Made by a program: the position numbers and the translations under genes. Below, piece after piece: positions 37,070-40,172 of a stretch of DNA of 58,306 nt (within the stretch, counting starts at the first letter, position 1; each line of letters begins with the position of its first letter). Origin of the DNA: Immundisolibacter sp. (GTDB taxonomy: Bacteria; Pseudomonadota; Gammaproteobacteria; Immundisolibacterales; Immundisolibacteraceae); the NCBI RefSeq assembly GCF_014359565.1, contig NZ_JACIZD010000014.1:1-58306 (forward strand), given 5' to 3'. The notes under the pieces are model-generated. The model worked only from the letters and a program-made list of their open reading frames with translations, did no database searches and was not told where the DNA came from.

Positions 37070-37738
37070 ATGGCCCGCACGCTTGCCCTGTTCGATCTGG
37101 ACAACACCTTGCTGACCGACGATAGCGACTACCTGTGGGGGCGCTATCTGTCCGACGCCGGCTTGGTCGACGGCCCCGCCTACGAGGCCCAGAACGCGCG
37201 CTATTACGCCCTGTACAAGGCCGGCGACCTGGACATCCACGAATTTCTGGCCTTTGCGCTGCGCCCGTTGCGGGAGCTGCCCCTGGCGCGCCTGCTCGAG
37301 CTGCGCGAGCGTTTCGTGGCCGAGTGGATCGTCCCGCGGGTGGCGCCGGGGGCGAGGGCCCTGATCGAGCGCCACCGCCGCGATGGCCACATGCCGGTCA
37401 TCATTACGGCCACTAACCGTTTCGTGACCGGGCCGATCGCCGGCCTGCTGGGCGTGCCGGCGTTGATCGCCACCGAGCCGGAGCGTGACGCGGAAGGTTT
37501 CACCGGGCGCGCGCTGGACCCGCCCTGTTTTCAGGCCGGCAAGGTGGCTCGCCTCAAGGCCTGGCAAAGCCGCTATGGCTACGCCGGTGCGTACACCTAT
37601 TTCTATAGCGATTCCCACAACGATCTGCCGCTGCTGGAGCAGGTGGATGTGCCGGTCGTGGTGGATGCGGACCCGCAACTGACGGCGATTGCCGCCGCCC
37701 GTGGCTGGTCGCAGATCAGCCTGCGCGGGGTGCCCTGA
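37070..37738 (+). CDS. HAD-IB family phosphatase (SerB-like)
   Basis: This 222-residue hydrolase has motif I FDLDNTLLTDD (nucleophile D9, acid D11), motif II ITATNRF, a conserved lysine in QAGKVARLKAW, and motif III YSDSHNDLPLL. A helical cap fills about 20-90. Relatives beside rppH in pseudomonads are labelled HAD-IB or histidinol-phosphatase-like. The substrate is unknown. The start codon lies 111 bp from the divergent rppH start. Confidence 0.88.
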   Translation: MARTLALFDLDNTLLTDDSDYLWGRYLSDAGLVDGPAYEAQNARYYALYKAGDLDIHEFLAFALRPLRELPLARLLELRERFVAEWIVPRVAPGARALIERHRRDGHMPVIITATNRFVTGPIAGLLGVPALIATEPERDAEGFTGRALDPPCFQAGKVARLKAWQSRYGYAGAYTYFYSDSHNDLPLLEQVDVPVVVDADPQLTAIAAARGWSQISLRGVP

Positions 37739-37792
37739 GCGTGCTGCGCGGCAGCCGGGCCGGCGCCGCTGGGGGTCTGCTATCATCGTCGC

Positions 37793-37879
37793 CGCTCGTG
37801 GGTGATCCGCCGTGGTGTTCAGGCACACGGCAATGCCCCACGAACATGCAACGCCCCGCACCCGCCGGGGCGTTTTGTT
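37793..37879 (+). ncRNA. Candidate structured leader or small RNA upstream of lptD
   Basis: A TATCAT -10-like box at 37781-37786 is followed by two stacked helices. TCGTGGG (37796-37802) pairs with CCCACGA (37837-37843), and inside them CCGTG (37810-37814) pairs with CACGG (37826-37830). A strong terminator comes last. I see no good -35. It could be an independent small RNA of about 87 nt or an attenuating leader for lptD. I do not recognise a known family. Confidence 0.5.
37851..37879 (+). terminator. Rho-independent terminator
   Basis: ACGCCCCG (37851-37858) and CGGGGCGT form an 8-bp GC-rich stem around CACCCGC, followed by TTTGTT. It lies 29 bp before the lptD start and ends either the upstream HAD transcript or the candidate small RNA. 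Confidence 0.85.
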
Positions 37880-37907
37880 AACCGTCCGCGCCTGGGCTTA
37901 ACTTACG

Positions 37908-40172
37908 TTGCGCTACTCCAATTCAGCGGTTTTTCGACGGGCGTGCACGGCCGTCGTCGGGCTTTATGCAGTGCTCCTGAGCGTGGCCGGGCAGGCGGCG
38001 GTGAGCCAGCCGAGCGATGCCCAGTGCGGCAGCGCATTCGAGTTCATCGGTCCCGATCCGGCGGTGGCGGCGCGGGCCAAGGCGAGCGGTCAGCCGATCT
38101 ACGTGGTAGCCGACTCGTCGGAAGCCCAGCCCTCGGGGGATATTTTGCTCAGCGGCCAGGCGGCCATCGTCAAGGGCGATCGTCAGCTCAACGCCGACGA
38201 GGTCACGTTCAACCGCGACAGCCAGGCGGCGGTGGCCACCGGCGCGGTGGTGTTCGGCGACAGCCGCATGATGCTCGAGGGCAGCAGCCTGTCCTACAAC
38301 ATCGACGCCGACCAGGGCACCATCGAGAACGCCAGCTATGCGCTGCGCGAGAAGCGGGCGCGGGGTCGCGCCACGCGCATCATTCGCCGCGATGCCAGCC
38401 GGCATACGCTGGAAGGCGCTTTCTACACCACCTGTCCGCCGGGCAAGCGCGACTGGGCGGTGCGCTCGACCAAGGTCGATCTGGATTTTGACGCCGGCAA
38501 AGGCTCGGCGCGCAACGTGGTGCTGGACTTCAAGGGCATACCGATCCTGTACAGCCCGTATTTCAGCTTTCCGCTCTCCGACAAGCGCAAGTCGGGTTTC
38601 CTGGCGCCAAGCGCCGGCAATTCCGACGAAATCGGTTTCGAGCTGCGGGCGCCGTACTACCTGAACCTGGCGCCCAACTACGACGCCACCATCACCCCCC
38701 GCTACATGAGCAAGCGCGGGTTGATGATGGAGGGGCTGGGGCGCTACCTGTTCACTGACGTGCAGGGCGAGATCGGCGGCAGTTTCCTGCCGTCCGACAA
38801 GGTTGCCGACCGCAACCGCAACGCCCTGTTCATGTCCCAGTCAGGCGCCTTCACGCCGCGCTGGACGCATTACCTCACCTACAACAGCGTGTCCGATGAC
38901 GCCTATTTCGAGGACTTCGGTAACGGCATCAGCGATGTAAGCACCACCCACTTGCAGCGCCTGGCAAACACCACCTACAACGGTGACAACTGGCGTGTCA
39001 TGGGGCAGGTCGAGACCTATCAGACCCTCAGCGGCACGCGGCCGTACCGGCGCCTGCCGCAGCTGATGTTCAACACATCCGGCTTCACGTTCGGTGGCCT
39101 GAATTACGCACTGGACAGCGAGTACACCGCCTACGACCACCCGGACCTGGTCGATGGCACGCGCCTGGACCTGTATCCCAGCATCAGCCTGCCGTGGGAG
39201 CGGGCGGCGTTTCGGATCGAGCCACGGGTCGGCTTTCGCTACACGCAGTACCAGCTGAACGACCAGTTGCCGGGGCTGGACGATGCGCCGAGCCGCTCGG
39301 TGCCGATCCTCAGCCTGGACAGCGGGCTGTTTTTCGAGCGTGACCTCGACCTGTGGGGCGTGAGCGCGCAGCAGACGCTCGAACCGCGGCTGTTCTATCT
39401 GTACATCCCGCAGCGGGACCAGGACGACATTCCCGTGTTCGACACCGGCGATACGGATTTCAGCTTCCAGTCGCTGTTTCGTACCAACCGCTTTTCTGGC
39501 CCGGATCGCCAGGGCGATGCCAACCAGGTCACGGCGGCCGTCACCAGCCGTTTCCTGAGCGGGACCAGCGGGGTCGAGATGCTGCGCGCGAGCCTCGGCC
39601 AGATTCGCTACCTGCGGGATCGCCAGGTCAGCCTGCGCCCGGGCCCAGCGCTGGACAGCCGCGAGTCGGCCATCGTCGGCGAGCTATGGGCGCGCCTGAC
39701 ACGCGCATTGACGGCCAGCGGTGATCTGGAATGGGATCCGGACAGCGGCAGCACGCAGCGTTCCGTGTTTGGCCTGCATTACCGGGGCACGGGCGGCACG
39801 CTGCTGAATGCGTCCTATCGCATGCGCCGGGAGCTGCCCAACTTGTCTGCGCCGGGTCTCACCGACAGCCTGGAACAGATCGACCTGTCGGGCGTCGTCC
39901 CGCTGGGCCGAAACTGGCAGCTGGTGGGCCGGTCTTACTACTCGCTGCCGGAGTCCAAGATCATCGAGAGCTTCGTCGGTCTGGGTTATGAGAGTTGCTG
40001 CTGGGGCGCGCGGGTGGTTACCCGGCGCTACATCCGCAACCTCAGCGGCGAGACCACCAGCGCCATCATGTTCGAGCTCGAACTGAAGGGACTGACCAAC
40101 ATCGGCAACAAAGTGGAAAACCTGCTCACCGAAGGCGTGTTCGGCTACGACCGCAACGCCTACGGCTTCTGA
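37908..40172 (+). CDS. lptD: LPS-assembly outer-membrane protein LptD
   Basis: LptD inserts lipopolysaccharide into the outer leaflet together with LptE. The 754-residue protein has a signal peptide (about 1-30), an OstA jellyroll (about 50-170: ILLSGQAAIVKGDRQLNADEV) and a large beta-barrel. The disulfide cysteines are kept: C40, C176 (TTCPPG), and the pair C697/C698 (YESCCWGAR). The start is a TTG at 37908, because no ATG or GTG gives a signal peptide in frame. It precedes surA, whose product helps fold LptD, as in E. coli. Confidence 0.95.
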   Translation: MRYSNSAVFRRACTAVVGLYAVLLSVAGQAAVSQPSDAQCGSAFEFIGPDPAVAARAKASGQPIYVVADSSEAQPSGDILLSGQAAIVKGDRQLNADEVTFNRDSQAAVATGAVVFGDSRMMLEGSSLSYNIDADQGTIENASYALREKRARGRATRIIRRDASRHTLEGAFYTTCPPGKRDWAVRSTKVDLDFDAGKGSARNVVLDFKGIPILYSPYFSFPLSDKRKSGFLAPSAGNSDEIGFELRAPYYLNLAPNYDATITPRYMSKRGLMMEGLGRYLFTDVQGEIGGSFLPSDKVADRNRNALFMSQSGAFTPRWTHYLTYNSVSDDAYFEDFGNGISDVSTTHLQRLANTTYNGDNWRVMGQVETYQTLSGTRPYRRLPQLMFNTSGFTFGGLNYALDSEYTAYDHPDLVDGTRLDLYPSISLPWERAAFRIEPRVGFRYTQYQLNDQLPGLDDAPSRSVPILSLDSGLFFERDLDLWGVSAQQTLEPRLFYLYIPQRDQDDIPVFDTGDTDFSFQSLFRTNRFSGPDRQGDANQVTAAVTSRFLSGTSGVEMLRASLGQIRYLRDRQVSLRPGPALDSRESAIVGELWARLTRALTASGDLEWDPDSGSTQRSVFGLHYRGTGGTLLNASYRMRRELPNLSAPGLTDSLEQIDLSGVVPLGRNWQLVGRSYYSLPESKIIESFVGLGYESCCWGARVVTRRYIRNLSGETTSAIMFELELKGLTNIGNKVENLLTEGVFGYDRNAYGF

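Follow-up and report, generated by a model that had tools for sequence, protein, structure and literature searches.

Why should a terminator-like hairpin lie directly ahead of lptD, a gene for an outer-membrane protein that is essential in most Gram-negative bacteria? We examined this question in a window of 58,306 nucleotides, the whole stretch of DNA that was analysed, which is part of a 3.09-Mb Immundisolibacter genome. A sequence-only reading had proposed that two nested helices run into a strong terminator before lptD and that the whole may be an attenuating leader. We find that the DNA just ahead of lptD most probably forms the leader of lptD itself, about 115 nt long, containing a terminator which, as judged by sequence comparison, is lineage-specific and conserved in two species.

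The lptD locus and its predicted promoter

The HAD-IB phosphatase gene and lptD follow one another in the same direction, an order also seen in the family members that were read. The top NCBIfam name for the phosphatase was histidinol-phosphatase, with a score slightly below the model cut-off. LptD matched both LptD NCBIfam models with E-values of 4e-129 or better, yet its scores were below their cut-offs, and surA, the gene 3' of lptD on the same strand, was named by a match to the SurA model that also scored below cut-off. Judged by LptD, the closest named relative is a metagenome-assembled Immundisolibacter (82% identity). Our comparison set comprised three genomes of the genus (G000, which contains the window, G001 and G002) and eight genomes of the order. 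The coordinates of the features are collected in the table.

Table. Features at the lptD locus (window coordinates)
Feature	Position	Strand	Basis or description
HAD-IB family phosphatase gene	37070..37738	+	profile match; adjoins lptD on its 5' side
Extended -10 promoter-like element, TGCTATCAT	37778..37786	+	motif match and conservation
Predicted 5' leader of lptD, 115 nt	37793..37907	+	runs from the start predicted by the -10 element to the TTG
Outer helix 37796-37804/37836-37843 around inner helix 37809-37816/37823-37831	37796..37843	+	predicted fold
Intrinsic terminator	37850..37879	+	9-bp stem 37850-37858/37866-37874, 7-nt loop, U-tract to 37879
lptD (LPS-assembly outer-membrane protein)	37908..40172	+	TTG start, signal-peptide-like N-terminus

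The TTG at 37908 is kept in all three Immundisolibacter genomes, and it is the only common start codon 5' of the signal peptide because an in-frame TAA occupies 37899-37901. No obvious Shine-Dalgarno sequence precedes this TTG in any of the three. By eye, the sister genus apparently lacks an ATG close to the lptD signal peptide. Between G000 and G002, divergence appears far greater in the signal peptide region (37908-38000) than in mature LptD.

The motif TGNTATNAT has one match in the 58-kb window against an average of 0.75 in shuffles, and it is therefore place and conservation that carry the argument for a promoter. TGnTATCAT is found before lptD in all three genomes of the genus at a nearly equal distance, with 127, 128 and 129 nt separating the first base of the -10 hexamer from the lptD TTG. 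In the sister genus, TGTATGATG is present in all three lptD leaders, with the letters TGGTGTATGATG kept in each and the surroundings divergent, and a genome from another family of the same order (G007) has TGTTATGAT ahead of lptD. We take the conserved -10 element as fair evidence for an lptD promoter, and it predicts a transcription start at about 37793.

A terminator-type hairpin in the probable leader

The hairpin reads AACGCCCCG-CACCCGC-CGGGGCGTT followed by TTGTT, and thus has the makings of an intrinsic terminator: a GC-rich 9-bp stem with TTTTGTT after the GC part. With d = 14.5 (a score computed with a formula from the literature), it was the highest of the four sites with d above 0 on both strands of the whole window. 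The terminator-type hairpin that had been read from the letters was confirmed, as was its distance of 29 bp from the lptD start (37879 to the TTG at 37908). Shuffled windows, possibly up to 50 bases short, contained a site as good somewhere in 15 of 100 cases; the score alone is therefore not decisive, and location and conservation in a second genome decide. Only 4 of 500 shuffles of the hairpin alone folded as well. A generic terminator scanner did not report the site at 37850-37879.

The second genome is G002, whose species has an LptD 95% identical to that of the window species. G000 and G002 each contain the exact stem-and-T pattern a single time, at the lptD site, and G001 does not contain it. 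Between G000 and G002 the terminator is identical at 27 of 30 positions, and the distance from the -10 element to the terminator is 69 in each. Identity in the other pieces is 39/56 before the -10 element, 33/58 gapped (27/57 ungapped) in the leader body and 19/29 after the terminator; the flanking coding DNA is 93–94% identical, and its four-fold sites 83–86%. The leader body (37793-37849) thus shows far more divergence than the four-fold degenerate (synonymous) sites of the flanking genes, and the terminator has been preserved.

G001 has the promoter and lacks the terminator (best score −54.6, no evident substitute), which indicates that lptD can do without it. In a wider scan of 78 lptD upstream regions (30 of 53 genomes with an lptD match plus 48 of 54 loci from a second search, the window itself included), d exceeded 0 in two, and the window genome and G002 were the only ones among the genomes scanned to have the lptD leader terminator. 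The scan covered 450 bases before each match, so that part of a leader may be missed where the match begins well inside the protein; the leader at one of the 78 loci, L035, repeats that of G001. None of nine further lptD upstream regions (the remaining six of the 54 loci, among them L042 with about 555 bases upstream, and three sister-genus leaders) had a terminator.

The helices upstream of the terminator

Folding of 37781-37879 gave the predicted architecture, an enclosing helix, an enclosed helix (both within 37793-37849) and the terminator hairpin, at −43.1 kcal/mol; 10 of 200 shuffles were as good (z −2.07). For the helical part alone (37793-37849), 39 of 1000 shuffles folded as well (z −1.98). 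The two helices are thus marginal, with a predicted stability modestly above chance.

Conservation of the helices in related genomes, on which the sequence-only reading had made its proposal depend, did not emerge. With the window row left out, 8 of the 16 helix pairs are kept in G002 (shuffled mean 6.2, p 0.27) and 9 of 16 in G001 (shuffled mean 6.5, p 0.14), values within the shuffles, and covariation was likewise not found, in a comparison whose three sequences give low power. In the three-sequence alignment the whole structure had 77% of its cells paired, above slid and shuffled controls, a figure that includes the terminator and a structure drawn from one of the aligned sequences; the best-paired part was the terminator helix (92.3% vs 75.0% and 62.5%). 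The G002 segment of equal length folds differently. We also considered that the nested fold might be kept in G002 with changed sequence, and rejected this (hand-drawn fold −17.0 vs best fold −26.8). In the sister genus, G004 and G005 seem by eye to have similar nested helices, and G003 is without those letters. The two upstream helices are probably incidental.

Rfam gave no match at gathering score in the whole window, and a permissive scan of 37730-37930 returned nothing credible. No riboswitch class reached its threshold; the top local match was ZMP-ZTP, at 12.0 bits vs 39 needed. The terminator end alone resembles RsmY (RF00195; 12.6 bits over 28 nt), but the score is far below the gathering value of 57 and the body is unmatched. 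A repeat element was rejected, the stretch being present once in its own genome at E ≤ 0.001. G022 and G001 gave weak DNA matches elsewhere, none of them ahead of lptD.

How the terminator may act

If the predicted promoter and start site are the true ones, the order of -10 element (37778-37786), terminator and TTG at 37908 would be that of an attenuator and would imply partial premature termination. For a terminator in a probable leader, 3' of a conserved -10 element, the most economical view is that some transcription ends prematurely. We give about even credence to a specific form of it, in which lptD has its own promoter and a leader terminator with partial read-through that sets or modulates the level of lptD. 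Transcription would begin from the promoter at 37778-37786, a fraction of polymerases would stop at the leader terminator and free an RNA of about 85 nt, and the remainder would continue into lptD and the genes that follow. In this way the terminator would set or trim lptD expression. What sequence comparison provides is a hairpin of terminator type, a conserved -10 element and a fixed spacing of the two in two genomes; from these we infer a start site, actual termination and a read-through fraction. A leader terminator is a known kind of expression brake, and a strong unconditional one ahead of an essential gene is odd, which speaks against the leader-terminator view. Of the attenuating leader that had been suggested, the terminator in a probable leader 3' of a conserved -10 element is supported, and the two helices as a functional structure are not.

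If the terminator instead served mainly to end the upstream HAD phosphatase transcript, lptD would depend on read-through or on a promoter that overlaps the U-tract or lies beyond it. The two genes are adjacent and co-directional, and none of the other three sites with d above 0 in the window falls in the interval from the HAD stop codon to lptD. However, only 28 nt separate the terminator from the TTG, which would leave the lptD mRNA nearly leaderless. That interval is poorly conserved (19/29), and no shared promoter-like element, including a -10, was found in it by eye, whereas the conserved -10 element sits 5' of the terminator, also in relatives that lack the terminator. The position of the promoter weakens this explanation, and we consider it unlikely. 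Somewhat less probable is a stand-alone small RNA gene, with its promoter at 37778-37786 and terminator at 37850-37879, that yields a trans-acting RNA of about 85 nt and leaves lptD to read-through. It would suit the compactness of the unit formed by promoter and terminator, with its T-rich tail and its equal length in G002, and small RNAs derived from 5' UTRs are known in E. coli (PMC7815308). Beyond that layout it has no positive evidence: the body is 27/57 identical ungapped (33/58 gapped) while the flanking genes are at 93–94%, leaving no visible conserved pairing region, the terminator is absent in G001, and Rfam has no match at gathering score.

The hairpin may also be non-terminating in vivo and act as a stable leader element, for example against decay. 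Its absence in G001 without an evident substitute and the comparable scores in 15 of 100 shuffled windows would agree with this, but the stem and the T-run are conserved jointly in G002, and we hold it to be very improbable. The least probable of the explanations weighed is a ligand- or protein-sensing, riboswitch-like leader with the terminator under the control of the two helices. These helices adjoin the terminator on its 5' side and fold somewhat better than shuffles, and the structure exceeds slid controls over three sequences, though it was drawn from one of them with the terminator included. Against it, the helices are conserved in neither relative, Rfam offers no match, and we found no alternative fold pitting them against the terminator.

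Neither G000 nor G002 yielded a competing (antiterminator) fold. Without the terminator stem, the best fold was worse by 5.7 kcal/mol in G000, where the upstream helices were unchanged, and by 3.2 in G002; in G000, 6 of the 7 terminator pairs checked had a probability near 1. The lack of a competing fold argues against an RNA-only switch, and a ligand-sensing switch or alternative fold is not supported. Peptide-coupled attenuation was rejected, as neither of two short ORFs (37846-37881 and 37833-37901) is, by eye, kept in G002. Within the partial read-through reading, passage beyond the terminator could be constitutive or factor-dependent. A stronger proposal, which we regard as decidedly doubtful, is that a part of Immundisolibacter, and no other lineage, has a regulated attenuator, by which lptD and surA would be coupled to some envelope signal with the help of an antitermination factor acting in trans and not of an RNA switch.

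In E. coli, 3'-end mapping shows termination within 5' UTRs to be widespread (PMC7815308). The lptD leader resembles those cases in having a terminator between a predicted promoter and the start codon and a short 5'-UTR RNA as its predicted product, and differs in being known from sequence alone, in its restriction to two of the genomes scanned for lptD and in that no sensor was found. We found no report of lptD control by premature termination in the literature searched, and the accessible parts of PMC6358824 and PMC11005410 do not describe an lptD leader terminator. Because the finding is lineage-specific, its wider significance is limited. The E. coli lptD gene is transcribed by sigma-E (PMC6358824). 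The likeness to that system is control placed ahead of lptD; the difference is that here a conserved sigma-70-type extended -10 element is followed by a terminator. If termination is real, the locus would offer a compact, testable view of the control of LPS export capacity beyond the sigma-E model of enteric bacteria.
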